Below are positions 4,077 to 45,723 of a DNA stretch of 50,952 bases, one piece after another; the stretch's first letter is position 1; every line of letters begins with the position of its first letter. The stretch covers positions 1 to 50,952 of the IMG/VR virus record IMGVR_UViG_3300024273_001720; one strand, 5' to 3'. Under the pieces are notes generated by a model, which did not search any database, had not been told where the DNA came from, and saw nothing but the letters and a program-made list of their open reading frames with translations. The stretch comes from a virus. A program made the position numbers and the translations under genes.

Positions 4077-7000
4077 TTATGCTTGTATTTTGATGTGTAT
4101 CTTAAATTTATAAGAATACCCAGATCTTTTATTATATATCAATCTAAAACTAAGTGAATCGTTTTGATACGACTTAATTGTGTAATTTGAAAGTTGCTTG
4201 TATAAATCAGATCTTAATTCAGAGATTGTTGCTACCGGAATAAATTCAGTAGATATGTTCTTAGACTCAATACCATATATTTGAATTTCATCAATTATAA
4301 ATCTACTTACTATATTTGAATTAATGTATAATTCTAAATCATCGTCAATTGACTCTTTATTACCAAATGAATTAGCAGCAGTAACATAATTACTAAATGA
4401 ATTTTTTATACCATCTCTTATAAGCTCTTGTGCAATAGATCTTGGTAAATAAAAATCAATAAACACCTCTTCTGTATTTTCATACCAATGAATAGAACTT
4501 GTATTTAGAGAATTGTTTCGTATATCATCAAGACTGTTCACAGAAGACTCTTCTTTACTATCAAAAGAAAGCAAATCATACTCATTTTTAACTTTCATTA
4601 TCGTAGAAGTCATAAAATTTATTTTCTCAACAGGGCTTAGTGTACCATACGCTGGTTCGCTCTTACCTCCGATTATAGCTTTTGAAAAATAATCCGAAGA
4701 ATACTTAGATTTGAATAAGTTAATATCCTTCCTATCAATTGCTATCTCTCCGATTGCAGGATACAGTGGAAGTTTATCAGATGTTTGAGAAAGTTTTATT
4801 ATATTTTTAGCATTTTCATCATTTACCTTATGATAGAAATAATTACTAATGTAACCATAATTATCCATTGTATTTTTATAAGAACTAAAAGCTACCCCAA
4901 GATCATTGAATTTATTATAAATTAACAATTCCCTAGCATTATTTAAAACAACTTCACTAATATTCTCTAGTCTTATTAATTTGTTTTCACTATAAATATC
5001 CGTAAATGTTATAACATCCTTAACTATCGGATTGTAATCACCGTTCATTCTTCTTAAAACTGTTAAATATCCACCATCGGTTCTATCTACTATAACTCTA
5101 CCGACTTCACCCGAAGACAGTTGATATGCTTTTGGTTTTTCAGGATCTGATACTGATGTAATTATCGAAGGTTTATAAAATTCTACACCGTCCTCTATAG
5201 ACAAAACAAAATCATTAAGTACTTCATTACCACTAGAATCAATAGTAACATAATTCACACCATTAAATTTATTAAACCTTTCAGAAAACTCGTAAGCACT
5301 AATACTTTCTAATAAATCATTAAATACATTAGAACCACCCTCGATATATTTAAATCGCGACACAGCAGGATCCTGCGATATTAACGCAAATTCATTCGGA
5401 TCAAATCTCAGACCAGGTTGTATTACACCATCGTATGTAAGATACGGATATCCTTTGATTGAAACACTCTCAGAATCAATAACATTATCAACATCGCAGT
5501 AGTACACTGATCCAAGATAATCAAACGAGATTGAAGAATATCTTCCATCAGAGTCTGGCGTTACATACTTTAAGAAATCAGGATCAGCCGCAAATTCAGA
5601 AGCCCTAAGCACCCAATTGTCGTTTTCCTCTCCAACAATAGACGCACTAAAATCTATAAAAAATGGAATATCTATATCTTTTACATTAGTAGTCCCAGTC
5701 TCTATTAAATCATCTAAAAGATAGGACGAAATTCTATCTATTTTACTGATAGAGTTAGAATAAGTCACTAGATCAATATAAACGCATATGAATTTAAACA
5801 CATCATTTTTGATGACCGTTATTGGAGCGGTATTTTCAATACCGTTATTTGTATAGTTTAACACAACTCCGAATTTATAATCAACGACTTCAGAAGTCAT
5901 TATAAAATCAGTCGGTGAATTTAGTGTTGTCTCTTTTCTCTTTTTATAAGAATATCTTAAACCTCTAAAAACAGTGCTATTATCAGATTCAATGCTTCCT
6001 CCACTATTAAAAATAGTATATAATTTTTTACGTTTATCGTTAATCCATATTAGTTCACTCGTCCCTACTGCACCACTCCATTTAAAAAAACTTTTAAAAT
6101 AATCAAAAGAAGTAGTCTTAAGTCCCTCTTTGGTAATTCCCCCGCTACTGTTAAAATCTAGAAAACCTGTTATACTTTTTATCTTTTCAACATCTGATCG
6201 GTACCCATCAGGTATACTGTTAATACAGAAATGTTCCATATTCAAGTAGTCAGGATTTCTTACTGAAGCTATTTTAATATTTGGCGATAAATTATCTGAA
6301 CCAAAGGCTTCATTTGCATTTAAAACATAATCAAGAGATCTTGCGTTCGTAGCATCAACAAGAGAAAATTTATTAATAACTGGAACTACTCTACTTTTTA
6401 ACGAAGTTTCTTTTAATTCATTTTCTCGAAGACGATCGTACTCTGAAGATACATCAATTATCTTAGCATCTTCAATATCATCAGCTTCTAAAACCGGTGT
6501 TAATCCTGTAAAGAATTCAGATGGCGTATTGTAACCTTCAAAAACTTCATATTTTAATTCTCCTAATTCGGAATTCTTGGTAGAATAAAAATCGAAATCG
6601 AAATCTTTAAAATCATACGCGCTAAATTTACCATGAATTACATCATATTCTCTGTACACTTCAAATACATTGTCTCTTGTAAAAATCGTTGGCTTGTCTA
6701 GAATTACTCGATACTGATCGCTATTAAAAGGATCTAATTCTATTTCAATAATTTTAGTAAAATTCTTAGAATTTAATTGGCTAACAAATTCTCCAACTTG
6801 AAGTAATCCGATGTCTTGTTTTTTAACAACAATAGCTTGATCGACCTCCGATCCTCCAATCATAGTAGATATGTCCCATTCATTAAATTTTGCATTTATC
6901 ATAGGTTGGATTGCGATCCCATCTCGATTGTATATTAATTTTATACATTCGCCAGAGTTAGAGGCAAATAAATTGTCTCCGACTATAATCGGTCCCATAT

Positions 7001-9596
7001 TATCTTCATCAAACGCATAATATACAGTACCATCTGAATTTAATATTATAGAATAATATGATGTCACCCCATTATATTCCGTGAAATCTCCCTCTATTAA
7101 AAGCTTATCATCCCAAACTACGTTCAATGTATACAATCTCACTCCGTTGAATCCTGAACCCGTACCGAAACTAGTATCGATAGATCCATCAGATTGGATT
7201 TTTACAATATTGTCAACAGGCGTTCCGTTGTAAGAACTAATATATCCTCCTAAATAAAACGACGTTTCACCTTCGATTCGCGCAAGGTAGTTGGCGTTAT
7301 TAGGAAAATATGGACTTACACCAGAACCTGAATTAAATGTAAAATCTCTTGTTCCATTAGGTAGCAACTTAATTATTCCATTAAGTCCATTTGTCCCGTT
7401 ATATGTATTAAAATATCCTACAACGTACATAGAATTGTCAGGATTAATTAACACGCTCGTCGTAGTATTATTAAATCCTGAACCTGTAATAAATGAAGAA
7501 TCTATCGATCCGTTAGAAAGTATTCTTGCTATTCTATACGTTGGTGTACCGTTGTAATTACTAAAAATACCTGTCACAACTATAGAACCATTCGAGTCGA
7601 TTGCAGCACCTTGTGTAAAGTTATTAAAACCAGACCCCATTACAAAAGATGTATCTATACTTCCGTCAATATTTAGCCTTACTATTCTATTCTTTGATAC
7701 TCCTTGATACGACGTGAATGTTCCTGTTGCAATTATTTTACCATCAGTTTGTTGTACAATCGAAGAACCCGAATACAGTATTTGATTAACACCTGTTCCT
7801 ACATTAAATGAAGTATCTACTGTAAGGTCTTCATTTAGTTTAATTAAACCCTTATAGGCTACAGTTGCACCGTTTTCATCATATGCCGTAAATGAACCAT
7901 AAAAATAACTATTAGTAGGATTAAAAACATAATCTAATAAATAATAACCGCTGCTAGGTAGAAATGAATAACAAAATCCTGTTGGAATAATTTGTACCGG
8001 TGTTGTAAGTCCAAGATTGTTACTTTCAGCAGAATCTATTCTTACAAAATCAGAAATATTACCAGAATAAACACCAAACCCTGTTTGTCTCTTTCCATTA
8101 CCATATGCATAATCCTCAATAACAATTGAATTACCTTGTAGATATGACTTATATTGACCTGCACCTATCTGAGAGATTGCACCATTTAAAGAACCTGCAA
8201 TTTGTGCAAGACTACCGTTCGTAGAAAATCTATTGTTGATAAATGTTCCTTTAGGTAATGAATCATCCGCAATCATAATAAAACCTCCTAGATTGTAATC
8301 TTTTATCTCTAATTCAAATTTATCAAATAAAAACAATTTATCATTATTACTAGGCGGTTGTGTTATTGTTAATTTTATAAAACCTTTAAATTCATTTGAT
8401 TTTGAAACAGCTTCAATAGTGCTACCTGTCTTTGAATATCCTTCAAAGAAGCTTGTAATTTTTCTATCAAGAGCTACTGTAATTTTATTACTTTCAATAT
8501 GAGAAGTATTAACAAGATTATTTACATGATAAAAATAACCCTCTTTATCCTTCACATAATTAAGCGATGGCAAAGATAAATCAGTAGCATTTGGTAACAT
8601 GTCAAGATCATTTAGATCCGTACCTGATAAATCATAAAAAGATTTATAACTAGCAGGATCTATTGTTATTTCTCCTACACCATTGATATAATTTGGTTTA
8701 AAAGATCCTTCATCATATGCATCTGTATATAATCCAAAGTATCTAAATATTTTATAGTTTTCAGCGTTATCATCATCAAATAAGAATTCAAGATTAATTA
8801 TATTTGAAGGAACTACTCCATTTCTTTCAAAACCAGCAGTAATAATTTCGTTATTAAATATTTCAGGATAATCGGTAGAAGTATAATATTCTTCTAAAAT
8901 TTCATTCTTTTTTACAAATCCACCCTTAACTATATCAATTCCATTAAACGAGGACTTTGCTCCTAATTCAAAATTAATAGTTAATGCAGACTTAGAAAAT
9001 TGCTTGTCATTTACGTGATTTGTAAGGTACTTACCGATGTTTGACTTTATAGATAAATCAAAGGTTTTTACAATTGTAGCATTCTTTAATAATTCTAGTA
9101 TTCTTCCGTTCTGACCTTCTGTAGTTTCAGCATGTTTTTTATCGTAGTCAACAGAAGACACTCGATAGATAACAAAATTACTTGGAATCTTTTTATCTAG
9201 CCATATTGGGGCAAATATCTTATATTGTTCATCATATAATTTCGTAGAATTGAAAGAGGCGCCGCATTGATACTGATCTTCATACTGGAATTCATAATCA
9301 GAATAAATTGCAACATCTGAATATTTCCTTAAAACCTGATATCTAGAAGATATTGGTAGTTTTTTGTAATATCTTGAAATGTCTATTGAAAATTCACCCT
9401 TCGGATCTATTGGATATTTTTGATATTCAACTTTAGATAGTTCTTTATTTGCTTTAAATGAACTCAAGAATAGATTAGAACTAGAATCAACCACAAGTTT
9501 TACGTTACTTGTTAATTTAGGATTAGTTCTTAAAAGTGCGAAAGATTTATTGTCTATTGAGTTGCTTTCAATACCAGTATTAATGATGATAGCCAT
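4077..9596 (-). CDS. Giant tail protein with delta-60 beta-propeller repeats
   Basis: The largest gene here, 1839 residues. Residues about 575-860 hold at least five repeats of the type 'NxDGSIDTSFxxGSGFN ... xNGT', the signature of delta-60 (DUF5122) beta-propeller repeats common in Bacteroidota surface proteins. The flanking parts are Asn/Ser/Asp-rich and show no family I recognise. It lies in the tail block between the 1216-residue protein and the collagen-like fibres, so it is most likely a distal tail or adhesion protein. A minus-strand box GTGATATATAATA lies about 25-35 bases before its ATG, so it may have its own promoter. Propeller assignment is confident; function is inferred. Confidence 0.75.
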   Translation of the reverse strand: MAIIINTGIESNSIDNKSFALLRTNPKLTSNVKLVVDSSSNLFLSSFKANKELSKVEYQKYPIDPKGEFSIDISRYYKKLPISSRYQVLRKYSDVAIYSDYEFQYEDQYQCGASFNSTKLYDEQYKIFAPIWLDKKIPSNFVIYRVSSVDYDKKHAETTEGQNGRILELLKNATIVKTFDLSIKSNIGKYLTNHVNDKQFSKSALTINFELGAKSSFNGIDIVKGGFVKKNEILEEYYTSTDYPEIFNNEIITAGFERNGVVPSNIINLEFLFDDDNAENYKIFRYFGLYTDAYDEGSFKPNYINGVGEITIDPASYKSFYDLSGTDLNDLDMLPNATDLSLPSLNYVKDKEGYFYHVNNLVNTSHIESNKITVALDRKITSFFEGYSKTGSTIEAVSKSNEFKGFIKLTITQPPSNNDKLFLFDKFELEIKDYNLGGFIMIADDSLPKGTFINNRFSTNGSLAQIAGSLNGAISQIGAGQYKSYLQGNSIVIEDYAYGNGKRQTGFGVYSGNISDFVRIDSAESNNLGLTTPVQIIPTGFCYSFLPSSGYYLLDYVFNPTNSYFYGSFTAYDENGATVAYKGLIKLNEDLTVDTSFNVGTGVNQILYSGSSIVQQTDGKIIATGTFTSYQGVSKNRIVRLNIDGSIDTSFVMGSGFNNFTQGAAIDSNGSIVVTGIFSNYNGTPTYRIARILSNGSIDSSFITGSGFNNTTTSVLINPDNSMYVVGYFNTYNGTNGLNGIIKLLPNGTRDFTFNSGSGVSPYFPNNANYLARIEGETSFYLGGYISSYNGTPVDNIVKIQSDGSIDTSFGTGSGFNGVRLYTLNVVWDDKLLIEGDFTEYNGVTSYYSIILNSDGTVYYAFDEDNMGPIIVGDNLFASNSGECIKLIYNRDGIAIQPMINAKFNEWDISTMIGGSEVDQAIVVKKQDIGLLQVGEFVSQLNSKNFTKIIEIELDPFNSDQYRVILDKPTIFTRDNVFEVYREYDVIHGKFSAYDFKDFDFDFYSTKNSELGELKYEVFEGYNTPSEFFTGLTPVLEADDIEDAKIIDVSSEYDRLRENELKETSLKSRVVPVINKFSLVDATNARSLDYVLNANEAFGSDNLSPNIKIASVRNPDYLNMEHFCINSIPDGYRSDVEKIKSITGFLDFNSSGGITKEGLKTTSFDYFKSFFKWSGAVGTSELIWINDKRKKLYTIFNSGGSIESDNSTVFRGLRYSYKKRKETTLNSPTDFIMTSEVVDYKFGVVLNYTNNGIENTAPITVIKNDVFKFICVYIDLVTYSNSISKIDRISSYLLDDLIETGTTNVKDIDIPFFIDFSASIVGEENDNWVLRASEFAADPDFLKYVTPDSDGRYSSISFDYLGSVYYCDVDNVIDSESVSIKGYPYLTYDGVIQPGLRFDPNEFALISQDPAVSRFKYIEGGSNVFNDLLESISAYEFSERFNKFNGVNYVTIDSSGNEVLNDFVLSIEDGVEFYKPSIITSVSDPEKPKAYQLSSGEVGRVIVDRTDGGYLTVLRRMNGDYNPIVKDVITFTDIYSENKLIRLENISEVVLNNARELLIYNKFNDLGVAFSSYKNTMDNYGYISNYFYHKVNDENAKNIIKLSQTSDKLPLYPAIGEIAIDRKDINLFKSKYSSDYFSKAIIGGKSEPAYGTLSPVEKINFMTSTIMKVKNEYDLLSFDSKEESSVNSLDDIRNNSLNTSSIHWYENTEEVFIDFYLPRSIAQELIRDGIKNSFSNYVTAANSFGNKESIDDDLELYINSNIVSRFIIDEIQIYGIESKNISTEFIPVATISELRSDLYKQLSNYTIKSYQNDSLSFRLIYNKRSGYSYKFKIHIKIQA

Positions 9597-24431: not shown

Positions 24432-24521
24432 TTGTTTTTTTAATTATAATGTAAATATAAACAAAAAAGCCCAAACAAAAAAATGTTTGGGCTATTATTT
24501 TTCAAAAAGTTATTAACAATT
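24432..24521 (-). repeat. Terminator/leader module, copy A
   Basis: One of four intergenic modules built alike. In minus orientation each has AATTGTTAATAACTTT at the stop codon of the upstream gene, then (in three of four) a GC-richer hairpin with a T-rich tail, then TATATTTACATTATAATTAA before the next gene. This copy separates the S1 gene from the capsid-targeting-peptide gene. The plus-strand 16-mer AAAGTTATTAACAATT is at 24506-24521. Confidence 0.7.
24468..24493 (-). terminator. Intrinsic terminator after the S1-domain gene
   Basis: A perfect 10-bp inverted repeat, AGCCCAAACA / TGTTTGGGCT, with a 6-base loop. On the minus strand it is followed by TTTTTTG, as expected for a Rho-independent terminator of the S1 gene ending at 24520. 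Confidence 0.8.
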
Positions 24522-25710
24522 ATAGTTTTAAGAAAACTTTTCTTGTGTCAACTTCTATTCTTGTGATTTGTACAGTAATTGGACTGTTCTTTGTGAGTGA
24601 ATCAATTTCTATACCCTCTGGCAATTCAGATATATGTAACAATCCTACAATACCATCTCCAATGTCTACGAATACACCATAATCTTTCACGGACTTAATG
24701 GTACCAATAACTTCAGTTGGGAATGATTTGTACTTTCCTGCAATTTCTTTCCATGGATCTACAGTTTCAACAACATCCAATTGAGTCAAAGTAATTTTAG
24801 TATCACTGATAATTTCTTTTACTTTGAATTCAATCTCATCACCGGGATTAATTTCTCTGGCTTTATGTTTTCTAGCCATTTCACTGGTTAAGTCATTAGC
24901 ATAAATCATACCAGTTAAACATCCATCAAATTCAACGAATACTCCATATTTTGCAGAACCTGTAACATTTCCTTTTTTAGTTTCTCCAATAGAATTTCTA
25001 AGTTCTTCTACTTTACCAGGAATCATTGCCTGTAGGTATTTTCTATGTGAAACAATAACTGTTCCTCTTTCTGTCGAATAGCTCATAGGAACTACATACA
25101 TTTGAGTGTTTAAGATAGATTCAAATTCTGCAAGTTTGTTAATTCCCGCAAGAGAACCTGGCATAAAACAATCCACTCCTTGTACATTTACGAAATACCC
25201 TCCGTTTGGAATCATTCCAGTCACAGTTCCGACGTATGCTGTTTTACCTTCTTCGATCGATTCTAAAATATCTCTAAGAACTGCAGCTTTAATTCCAGCA
25301 TCAACAGATCCTAAGATAAATCCTTTGTTTGTTCTGTCACCTGATACTTCAACAGATACCTCAGTACCTGGTACTAATTTTGCCTTTGAAATTGCTGTCT
25401 CCTTTGCCATATTAACATAAACCATTTCTTTGTGGCCAATATCAATTGAAGCCCATTCAACATCTACTGCATATACTATACCGCTATGTGTTTCTCCAGG
25501 GTTAACCGAAAATACGTTTTGGGTTGTTGCGAACGCATTTTCCATTAGGTTGTAAAGTTCTTGAGCGTAGGGCTCTCTTGAATAAACTTTGTGACCATTC
25601 TTTGTTTTTACATGAGGGTTTGGTTTTTTGTAAGCTGATGGACAATCCGCTAAGTGAGCATCCCAATCAAATCCTAATAAACCTTCATTTGCAATTTGTT
25701 TTTTTGACAT
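24520..25710 (-). CDS. Phage-encoded multi-S1-domain protein (ribosomal protein S1-like)
   Basis: A 396-residue protein with four S1 OB-fold units at about residues 75-135, 145-210, 235-300 and 325-396. The last two carry the typical patterns KYGVFVEFDGCLTGMIYANDL and DYGVFVDIGDGIVGLLHISEL. Host bS1 is usually about 550-600 residues with six units, so this is a shortened form. The N-terminal GFDWDAH recalls the FDWDA-type start that I remember from Bacteroidota bS1; that needs checking. It sits alone within the tail block with its own terminator and an upstream TATATAAT box. Binding mRNA on the host ribosome is inferred. Confidence 0.8.
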   Translation of the reverse strand: MSKKQIANEGLLGFDWDAHLADCPSAYKKPNPHVKTKNGHKVYSREPYAQELYNLMENAFATTQNVFSVNPGETHSGIVYAVDVEWASIDIGHKEMVYVNMAKETAISKAKLVPGTEVSVEVSGDRTNKGFILGSVDAGIKAAVLRDILESIEEGKTAYVGTVTGMIPNGGYFVNVQGVDCFMPGSLAGINKLAEFESILNTQMYVVPMSYSTERGTVIVSHRKYLQAMIPGKVEELRNSIGETKKGNVTGSAKYGVFVEFDGCLTGMIYANDLTSEMARKHKAREINPGDEIEFKVKEIISDTKITLTQLDVVETVDPWKEIAGKYKSFPTEVIGTIKSVKDYGVFVDIGDGIVGLLHISELPEGIEIDSLTKNSPITVQITRIEVDTRKVFLKL

Positions 25711-25746: not shown

Positions 25747-25756
25747 TTATATATAT
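25747..25756 (-). promoter_or_regulatory. Candidate TATATAAT box before the S1-domain gene
   Basis: On the minus strand ATATATATAA is followed by TCATATAATTTATTAAC, about 35-45 bases before the ATG at 25710. The 52-base gap holds no hairpin. The leader is A-rich (AACAAACAAAAAAAATG) and has no Shine-Dalgarno sequence. Confidence 0.35.
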
Positions 25757-40942: not shown

Positions 40943-41554
40943 TTATTTTACATAAGTAGCATACTTATATGTTTTAACCTTTCTATCTTCCAATCCATTA
41001 GTACCACCATTAATTCTTTTAGTAAGTACTAATATTGCAGCATCATTGATTCCTTTGTCACAAATATCCCATAATTTATTCTTGTCAAAGAAAAACATAG
41101 CTGACTCAAATGAATAAGTGGTTGCTACCAAATCTGGATTTTCCATAATTTCTGGTTTATTTAGATATTTAGCGAATGCTTGATAGTTTGCCTTTCCAGT
41201 TAATTGAAGAGCTCCTCTACCTCTGAATTTCCAACCATCCCCAGAAGCTTCATCGCCATTACCCATTCTTGATGCATAAACTCTATTTGCAATCCTTTCA
41301 GGTTGACGCGCATAAGACTCTTCTAAATTACCTGGAAAATATTTTCCAAAAGTATCCTGTAATCCTCGTGTTGAATAGTTTAGGTTTTCAGTGAATAGTT
41401 TATAATCACAGGTTTCGTGTGCGGTTTGTGCAAAAAAATGTGCAGCTCTGATTGGTGTTAATTTAAAATAGGCAATTGCAGCCTTCATGGTACCTGGGCC
41501 AAATGATCCATCAACGGTAACTCCTACCCTTTCTTGTAATGATTTTAAACTCAT
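40943..41554 (-). CDS. Endolysin: peptidoglycan-binding motif plus GH19 domain
   Basis: A 203-residue protein. Residues 1-30 (SLQERVGVTVDGSFGPGTMK) are a peptidoglycan-binding_1-like motif. The rest is a GH19 chitinase-like lysin with AHETCDY (catalytic Glu 47), WKFRGRGALQLTGKANYQ and KRINGGTNGLEDR. It would hydrolyse cell-wall glycan for lysis. No signal peptide is visible, so export needs a holin; a multi-pass membrane protein is encoded two genes upstream. Its catalytic domain is related to the one fused to the hub at 29404-31515. Confidence 0.85.
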   Translation of the reverse strand: MSLKSLQERVGVTVDGSFGPGTMKAAIAYFKLTPIRAAHFFAQTAHETCDYKLFTENLNYSTRGLQDTFGKYFPGNLEESYARQPERIANRVYASRMGNGDEASGDGWKFRGRGALQLTGKANYQAFAKYLNKPEIMENPDLVATTYSFESAMFFFDKNKLWDICDKGINDAAILVLTKRINGGTNGLEDRKVKTYKYATYVK

Positions 41555-41901
41555 AATTTATATATTACTTTAAATACCTTTACATTCTTGGAAGCTGCCA
41601 TGTCGATAGTCATTCTAGTTCCTTTGGAAACACCATCCCAAAACGCAATAATAATATCGGAATTTTCAACGATTTTTATATTTCTAATTGCAGCAGCACC
41701 CTTGCCAATAGACCAGTCTGGTTTAAAAATAATAGTATCTATGTTGTTTAGATTTGCATATTGTTCTGCTAGAGAATCTGCTCCTTTTGCTCCACCACTA
41801 ATTATTGAAGATATTTGAGTTCTGTTAGATATTCTATTTAAAGTTTTTTCTAGTAATTCATAGTCCATAAAGGTTCTACTGCCGATGACACCTATTCTCA
41901 T
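41551..41901 (-). CDS. SLOG-family (YspA/DprA-like) nucleotide-binding protein
   Basis: A 116-residue Rossmann-type protein with the small SLOG signature: IGVIGSRTF, then IISGGAKGADSLAEQYA, KPDWSIGKGAAAIRN and AFWDGVSKGTRMTID. Family members sense or cut nucleotide-derived ligands. It overlaps the endolysin gene by four bases and directly follows the membrane protein gene, an unusual place for this family. It may link lysis timing to a nucleotide signal, but that is inference. Confidence 0.8.
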   Translation of the reverse strand: MRIGVIGSRTFMDYELLEKTLNRISNRTQISSIISGGAKGADSLAEQYANLNNIDTIIFKPDWSIGKGAAAIRNIKIVENSDIIIAFWDGVSKGTRMTIDMAASKNVKVFKVIYKL

Positions 41902-43657: not shown

Positions 43658-43951
43658 TTAGTCGCCTGCCATTATGACAAGCTCCTTTAACTTTTTAAGT
43701 GTATCACACTTCTCGTACTCCTCTAGCTCTACAAAATAATTTATAAGAAGATCTATAAACATGCTTCTCTGTCCTACACCATGTGGAATGTCTATTGTAT
43801 TTTTGCTGTCTTGATATACAATAAATCGATTAACAGTTTTTGTAAAATTTCTTGTTATTATGTAATAGCTGGATCTCATTAGGGAGTCTCTTTCCTCTCT
43901 CGTAACTTCTTCCATCCTTGTTAAATCTTTTTGTAATAGGGTAATACCCAT
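43658..43951 (-). CDS. Small protein with C-terminal EEYEKC (UVR-like) motif, copy 1
   Basis: A 97-residue protein. Its end, NYFVELEEYEKCDTLKKLKE, matches the ends of the proteins at 44198-44449 and 45439-45723. The pattern resembles the UVR motif of UvrB/UvrC and McsA (acidic-aromatic-Glu-Lys-x-x-x-[LI]-[RK]). The N-terminal part is helical and differs between copies. A TATATAAT box lies about ten bases before the ATG. It could be a protein-protein adaptor; this is inferred from the UVR family. Confidence 0.6.
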   Translation of the reverse strand: MGITLLQKDLTRMEEVTREERDSLMRSSYYIITRNFTKTVNRFIVYQDSKNTIDIPHGVGQRSMFIDLLINYFVELEEYEKCDTLKKLKELVIMAGD

Positions 43952-44024: not shown

Positions 44025-44204
44025 TTATAAATCCCTATTTTGCTTGTATTTTGCCTTGCTAATCATTTGTCTTTTTTCAACTGAGGGCTTTGTAAATTCC
44101 TTTCTATCTCTAAGCTCTTGGGTTTGCTTTGTTGAAAAGACCTTGCGCTTTAAAGTCTTAAGCGCTTTCTCTATATTACCGTTTTCTACTTTGGTTATTA
44201 GCAT
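44025..44204 (-). CDS. rpsU: Ribosomal protein bS21, phage-encoded
   Basis: A 59-residue protein, easily overlooked for its size. MLITKVENGNIEKALKTLKR aligns with the bS21 consensus (MLI-x-V-x-x-x-E-x-I-E-x-A-L-K-x-x-K-R-K), followed by LRDRKEFTKPSVEKR, which matches the family's 'LR-RR-x-F-x-KPS-x-x-R' core and fits the Bacteroidota form 'FTKPSV'. bS21 binds the 30S platform near the anti-Shine-Dalgarno end of 16S rRNA and affects initiation. The ATG overlaps the preceding gene by seven bases. It probably exchanges with host bS21. Confidence 0.9.
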   Translation of the reverse strand: MLITKVENGNIEKALKTLKRKVFSTKQTQELRDRKEFTKPSVEKRQMISKAKYKQNRDL

Positions 44205-44449
44205 GATAGTTTGTCTATTATTTTTTTAAGTTCAAGGCATTTTTCATATTCCTCTCTTTCTTTAAAGAAATTTAATATCTTTTGAACTCCTTCTATCTTG
44301 TCCTCCACTGGTGCGTTATGTTTCAATGCACCCATGCGATCATTCACTATAGAATTATATATCAAATCCATCATATCCTCTCTTGAGGATTCTTGTAGTT
44401 TTTTAATGAACTTTGTTTCTTCGTACTCGTACTCTTCTAATTCATCCAT
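44198..44449 (-). CDS. Small protein with C-terminal EEYEKC (UVR-like) motif, copy 2
   Basis: An 83-residue acidic/helical protein. The end ILNFFKEREEYEKCLELKKI matches the other two EEYEKC proteins. The N-terminus has a second, unrelated acidic stretch (DELEEYEYEETKF). Its ATG overlaps the dnaJ stop by one base and its stop overlaps bS21, so all three are translationally coupled. An adaptor role next to a chaperone is possible. Confidence 0.6.
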   Translation of the reverse strand: MDELEEYEYEETKFIKKLQESSREDMMDLIYNSIVNDRMGALKHNAPVEDKIEGVQKILNFFKEREEYEKCLELKKIIDKLSC

Positions 44450-45426: not shown

Positions 45427-45440
45427 TATATTATATATTT
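45427..45440 (-). promoter_or_regulatory. Candidate TATATAAT box before the 53-residue gene / dnaJ run
   Basis: On the minus strand AAATATATAATATA lies 17-30 bases before the ATG at 45410, overlapping the stop of the preceding gene by two bases. It could start the transcript for the 53-residue protein, DnaJ, EEYEKC protein 2 and bS21. Confidence 0.4.
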
Positions 45441-45723
45441 AGATTTGTTCTAGAATATCCTTGATCTTTGCACATTTCTCATACTCTTCTAATTCAACGA
45501 ATAGGTCTAACATTAAGGATAGGGTGTTTTCCAATGTAGTAGTATCATGACCACTTCGTTTCATTGCAATAACATCAACTCCTTTGTCAACTATCATTTC
45601 ATAGTTTTCGTTGGCTAATTTAATTTTTAGGTCGTACATTGCTTGTTCCATTTCTGCTTCTTTTTGGATTGTTTCAATTTCACTTGTTTCTTCGAATAAA
45701 TCGTTATCGTCAAAGTCTTCCAT
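45439..45723 (-). CDS. Small protein with C-terminal EEYEKC (UVR-like) motif, copy 3
   Basis: A 94-residue protein with an acidic N-terminus (MEDFDDNDLFEETSEIETI) and a helical middle. The end LDLFVELEEYEKCAKIKDIL matches the two other copies in this 2-kb block, and the AKIKDIL part is closest to the UVR consensus. It is the first gene after terminator/leader module D. Confidence 0.6.
   Translation of the reverse strand: MEDFDDNDLFEETSEIETIQKEAEMEQAMYDLKIKLANENYEMIVDKGVDVIAMKRSGHDTTTLENTLSLMLDLFVELEEYEKCAKIKDILEQI

Follow-up and report, generated by a model that had tools for sequence, protein, structure and literature searches.

A four-domain bS1-like protein holds a fixed place in the tail region of a clade of uncultured phages, with bS21 as an optional companion

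The window analyzed here, a 50,952-base linear virus record, carries on its minus strand an open reading frame of 396 codons (24520-25710) at exactly the coordinates of the original prediction, which had described a four-unit S1 protein. The Pfam S1 profile matches the product at E 1.9e-23, and in a search of PDB sequences residues 66-363 are collinear with domains D1-D4 of ribosomal protein bS1 (E 5.3e-37). An AlphaFold model built from 34 family members (pLDDT 79.6) contains four OB barrels with a helix (residues 49-62) ahead of them, and its top PDB fold matches are bS1 chains on 30S complexes (9gut_B, E 9.4e-27, probability 1.00). The tandem S1/OB domains follow the bS1 order, with D1-D2 of the ribosome type and D3-D4 of the RNA type; the protein ends with D4 and lacks D5-D6, so that its domain count is four, not the six of bS1 in Bacteroidota (FCB group). 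PHROGs has no family matching it. The observation itself is confirmed: the phage does encode a bS1-like protein, and a strongly conserved one.

Which parts of bS1 have been kept? The N-terminal segment (residues 14-62; 25525..25671, minus strand) combines an F-x-W motif with helix 49-62 (SREPYAQELY), predicted in the AlphaFold model, and is a candidate uS2/30S anchor. F14, W16, Y48 and A49 are present in all 77 gap-free sequences, and mean pairwise identity is higher in this segment (0.55) than in D1 (0.47). The bS1 chain 9zcd_A, taken as Flavobacterium johnsoniae because 9zcd and 7jil have their bS21 in common, starts ...FLANFNWHNF..., in which FNW is the same F-x-W. In E. coli, the corresponding N-terminal segment is the main ribosome anchor of bS1 (PMC4288201); its aromatic pair F5/F9, which stacks on uS2, has no residue-by-residue counterpart in the phage protein, whose helix, conserved with the invariant Y48, differs in register and lies further from D1. 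D1 (residues 66-136; 25303..25515, minus strand) has D90 and K94 at the positions of E. coli D39 and K43, which contact uS2 (PMC4288201); position 90 is Asp in 75 of 77 sequences and position 94 is Arg or Lys in all of them. D2 (residues 157-222; 25045..25242, minus strand) is the most conserved domain (identity 0.756): Y172 and F182, each found in 78 of 78 sequences, are equivalent to F120 and F130 of the E. coli D2 pocket (PMC10123108), whereas Lys117 of that pocket is not conserved. D3 (residues 243-310; 24781..24984, minus strand) and D4 (residues 331-396; 24523..24720, minus strand) are of the RNA-binding type, with Y255, F258 and H/Y270 in the former and the invariant Y344, F347 and H359 in the latter; such D3/D4 aromatics of S1 domains serve RNA binding. 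Residue 270 (24901-24903) is Tyr in the window and the D3 RNA-binding His in 74 of 78 relatives. In this respect the original proposal is supported: the protein is of the bS1 type and retains features of both the ribosome side and the RNA side.

S1 domains are common among RNA proteins, which counts against a ribosomal role. The protein could instead act off the ribosome, never binding it, as an RNA chaperone, an mRNA stabilizer or a transcription/antitermination factor for late mRNA. The invariance of the RNA-binding residues in D3/D4 and the survival of S1 where bS21 is lost (below) would fit, and bS1 itself is known to act in such ways and to bind nucleases as well as proteins of phages (PMC13157829). 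This explanation is possible though unlikely: D2 and the N-terminal segment, which face the ribosome in bS1, are conserved at least as well as the RNA-binding part or D1, and an RNA chaperone working off the ribosome would not need them.

The gene had been placed inside the tail operon, and baseplate and tail genes do lie on both sides of it; yet it has putative transcription signals of its own. A late-promoter-like motif, ATATATAA (25747..25754, minus strand), stands upstream of S1, at a distance of 44 nt from its start. The window has 18 sense copies of the motif and one antisense copy; 12 lie in noncoding sense sequence, where 1.3 are expected. Genes preceded by the motif include S1 and several structural genes, and a block of the same type also lies upstream of S1 in relatives. 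Strand-biased and ahead of late genes, it is a probable phage late promoter element. Directly 3′ of S1 is a predicted intrinsic terminator (24468..24493, minus strand) with a 10-bp stem and a T run; a hairpin and T run occupy the same site in most relatives, namely those closer to the window, and are absent from three (G032, G035, G041). To judge from these signals, S1 looks like a separate unit inside the tail region, one that would be expressed late.

At least 106 viral contigs encode this S1. It occupies the identical tail/baseplate slot in all 18 relatives read at length, and when loci were collected independently, by searching for the baseplate wedge gene, it was present in every one of the 58 loci with enough sequence upstream of that gene to cover the slot. 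The dN/dS ratios of 0.05-0.14, comparable with those of neighboring genes, indicate purifying selection. The gene order also holds in the 462-kb phage LR756500, whose S1 orthologue is 37% identical. Human-gut “Bacteriophage sp.” matches turned out to be ordinary bacterial rpsA loci and were left out of the count of phage S1 genes; in one contig (L276, about 5697-7150) the S1 gene falls into two reading frames, through a sequencing error or because this copy is frameshifted.

If S1 never leaves the baseplate genes, is it part of the tail? OB folds are also found in baseplate hubs, and a protein that travels in the virion or takes part in tail assembly, perhaps to be injected and act on early translation, would be expected in just this invariable position. 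Packaging has likewise been suggested for phage bS21 (PMC9723584). A virion role is nevertheless highly improbable: the protein's close matches in sequence and in fold are all ribosomal S1, the gene lies between a promoter-like motif and a terminator of its own, and in the 634-735 kb phages and the Lak phages it has no recognizable tail neighbors.

For the baseplate wedge gene, the most similar GenBank sequences come from LR756500 (40%), other huge phages, Lak phages of Prevotella, and the cultured Tenacibaculum phages pT24/PTm1 and Flavobacterium phage MaF61 (28-30%); F. johnsoniae (7jil) is among the top relatives of the bS21. Taken together with the Tyr54 equivalent of bS21 and the A-rich leaders lacking a Shine-Dalgarno (SD) sequence, these matches make a Bacteroidota host likely. 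No S1 domain exists anywhere in the genomes of pT24 and MaF61, which share the tail module; hosts of that kind therefore do not require a phage S1, and S1 marks the clade of the window rather than all such phages. The origin of the gene is a separate matter. Derivation from the host was considered and set aside: among PDB entries, E. coli bS1 gives the window S1 a better score (131 bits) than F. johnsoniae bS1 does (101 bits), so that a Bacteroidota source is not established, and a single genome scan returned only a Lak-like phage S1. It lies on a contig of a Clostridium metagenome-assembled genome (CAMYZH010000086.1, L105), which is probably a piece of phage DNA sorted into a bacterial bin. 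A gene pair at 40943-41554 and 41551-41901, lysozyme/chitinase-like and SLOG-like by inspection of the sequence, is found only in the window and the near-identical G001, not in 17 other records, and appears to be a recent insert.

As the original prediction held, leaders in the window are A-rich (57-62% A at -15 to -13) and devoid of SD sequences (five-base matches in 0 of 42). Across the nine records that encode bS21 (642 genes), A peaks at 56-61% between -14 and -11, and five-base SD matches show no excess (2 of 642; shuffle mean 2.9, mock region 11); the records without bS21 have six matches among 527 genes (shuffle mean 1.8, mock region 5), and the A profile is identical in the two sets. 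Leaders of F. johnsoniae carry the same enrichment (-11 to -14), and bS1 D4 has been proposed to contact nucleotides -12 to -15 (PMC6847099). The notion that initiation is shifted toward leaders that are the phage's own was accordingly abandoned: the pattern is that reported for the host, it is indifferent to bS21, and it gives no sign of altered start-site choice. The leaders suit any bS1-dependent, SD-blind ribosome, with the host or the phage protein alike; that the host alone explains them counts against a ribosomal role for the phage S1.

The shared leader pattern also bears on a more hostile scenario, in which the truncated protein takes the uS2 site and keeps host bS1 out, so that host translation falls while A-rich late phage mRNAs still initiate. 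The absence of D5-D6 could be read in this way, since six domains are reported for bS1 throughout the Bacteroidota/FCB group (PMC6705787), and a pelagiphage bS21 strongly impaired translation when present in E. coli ribosomes (PMC6375957). Host shut-off is distinctly unlikely, however, because a phage with host-like leaders would poison itself too, and because D5-D6 are dispensable in E. coli, where D1-D4 alone support growth with mild defects (PMC3858243). The phage thus retains just the part of bS1 that suffices in E. coli.

The second ribosomal protein of the original prediction, bS21, is encoded at 44025..44204 (minus strand; 59 aa; PF01165, E 3e-13 to 4e-14), behind a leader without SD. 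It is of the Bacteroidota type, with an aromatic residue, Tyr53, at the position of F. johnsoniae Tyr54, which sequesters the anti-SD (ASD); the equivalent is Tyr in 31 of 31 phage proteins, and its retention points to preservation, not change, of the SD-blind mode of the host. In many Flavobacteriales the host rpsU gene has an extended SD, through which F. johnsoniae autoregulates rpsU (PMC9976891). Such host-like control was considered for the phage genes and rejected, because 29 of 31 phage bS21 leaders lack a strong SD; the two exceptions, G041 (L095; AAGGAG) and the 735-kb phage LR756501 (L285; AAAGGAGG), resemble the autoregulated host gene. Phage bS21 thus seems to escape the rpsU loop while preserving anti-SD sequestration.

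Do S1 and bS21 travel together? In the window and nine relatives read at length, bS21 sits between two short genes, but in seven of 17 informative records (G007, G008, G010, G013, G016, G017, G020) the slot is empty between intact flanks, and all seven keep S1. Contig fragmentation does not account for this absence, since the flanking genes are direct neighbors, their aligned ends 64-102 nt apart; the seven include records of 234, 200 and 170 kb that rank among the largest, though none is known to be complete. On the S1 tree the absence maps as a single change, and bS21 is also present in deep branches, making loss likelier than repeated gain. Farther afield, of six huge phages with an S1 relative that were tested, four also have bS21, and S1 occurs in five of eight GenBank phage records with a bS21 of the window's type; the bS21 of MT837542 looks bacterial. 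Co-occurrence, which the original prediction expected among relatives, is genuine but loose, with size and host as confounders. S1 is clearly independent of phage bS21, and its universal presence in the clade beside the empty bS21 slots does not support a fixed two-part system inherited together; the pattern makes the two look like separate helpers. Three short proteins around bS21 (43658-43951, 44198-44449, 45439-45723) share a C-terminal EEYEKCxxLKxI resembling a UVR motif; none reaches the gathering score of any Pfam family.

How might the phage use its S1? The preferred reading, to which we assign a probability of about 0.6, is that a truncated bS1, D1-D4 plus the conserved N-terminal anchor segment, is made late from the tail/baseplate region and docks on the host 30S subunit. 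The N-terminal segment and D1/D2 would bind at the uS2 side of the platform, as in bS1, and D3/D4 would hold the single-stranded A-rich leader; the phage protein would supplement or replace host bS1 while late mRNA without SD needs bulk translation. This proposal is suggested by the ribosome-contact-like residues of D1/D2 and the RNA-binding aromatics of D3/D4, which mirror the division of labor in bS1 (PMC10123108, PMC4288201); ribosome binding, late timing and preference for phage mRNA are the parts that we infer. Against this reading stand the missing counterpart of F5/F9, the unconserved Lys117, the higher score with E. coli bS1 and the absence of S1 from pT24 and MaF61. Because Bacteroidota ribosomes ignore SD sequences, bS1 is the obvious candidate reader of an A-rich leader; in F. 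johnsoniae it is the most loosely bound ribosomal protein and promotes initiation on SD-less mRNA (PMC9976891). Where present, bS21 would be a second exchangeable 30S protein, optional for the phage, which keeps the anti-SD tail sequestered and could help to hold bS1. In E. coli, bS21 bridges bS1 D1 to 16S rRNA (PMC10123108), so a phage with both genes could replace two touching, exchangeable proteins. That ribosomes carrying both phage proteins, in contact on the 30S platform, prefer phage late leaders over host mRNAs, and that the branch without bS21 achieves the same with S1 alone, is unlikely. The original interpretation is partly supported; its two-part change of initiation is unproven and not obligatory.

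The general idea was published in 2020 for huge phages, whose rpS1 and rpS21 were proposed to hijack initiation and in which rpS1-encoding phages rarely have SD sequences (Al-Shayeb 2020; PMC7162821). The window fits this description, with a multi-S1-domain protein, genes lacking SD and, as in some huge phages, bS21; it shares an S1 orthologue and gene order with LR756500. Here, by contrast, S1 is found at one fixed position throughout a large clade of uncultured phages, the losses of bS21 are mapped and an N-terminal anchor candidate is described; the residue conservation, the promoter-like motif and terminator and the indifference of leaders to bS21 are also new. From bacterial bS1 (rpsA), with which it shares D1-D4 order and fold, the pattern of ribosome-side and RNA-side residues and, in F. 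johnsoniae (9zcd), F-x-W near the N-terminus, the phage protein differs in lacking D5-D6, in a longer conserved segment before D1, in identity of about 25-30% at best and in its location in a tail module. Entry into ribosomes has been demonstrated for phage bS21 (PMC6375957), and no equivalent test for a phage bS1 was found in the literature; a clade that always carries a minimal four-domain bS1 and has natural bS21-plus and bS21-minus branches offers a ready comparison of the share of each protein in SD-independent initiation. The Microcystis jumbo phage PhiMa05 also encodes bS1, but of a Cyanobacterial/Vampirovibrionia lineage, with five other ribosomal proteins and no bS21 (PMC13157829). 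Bacteroidetes phages described by Chen et al. (2022; PMC9723584) have a Bacteroidota-type bS21 with the Tyr54 equivalent, for which late expression was likewise considered; it lies antisense among TerL/capsid genes, with no other ribosomal protein genes reported, whereas in the window bS21 is co-directional near PhoH/DnaJ and S1 is present.
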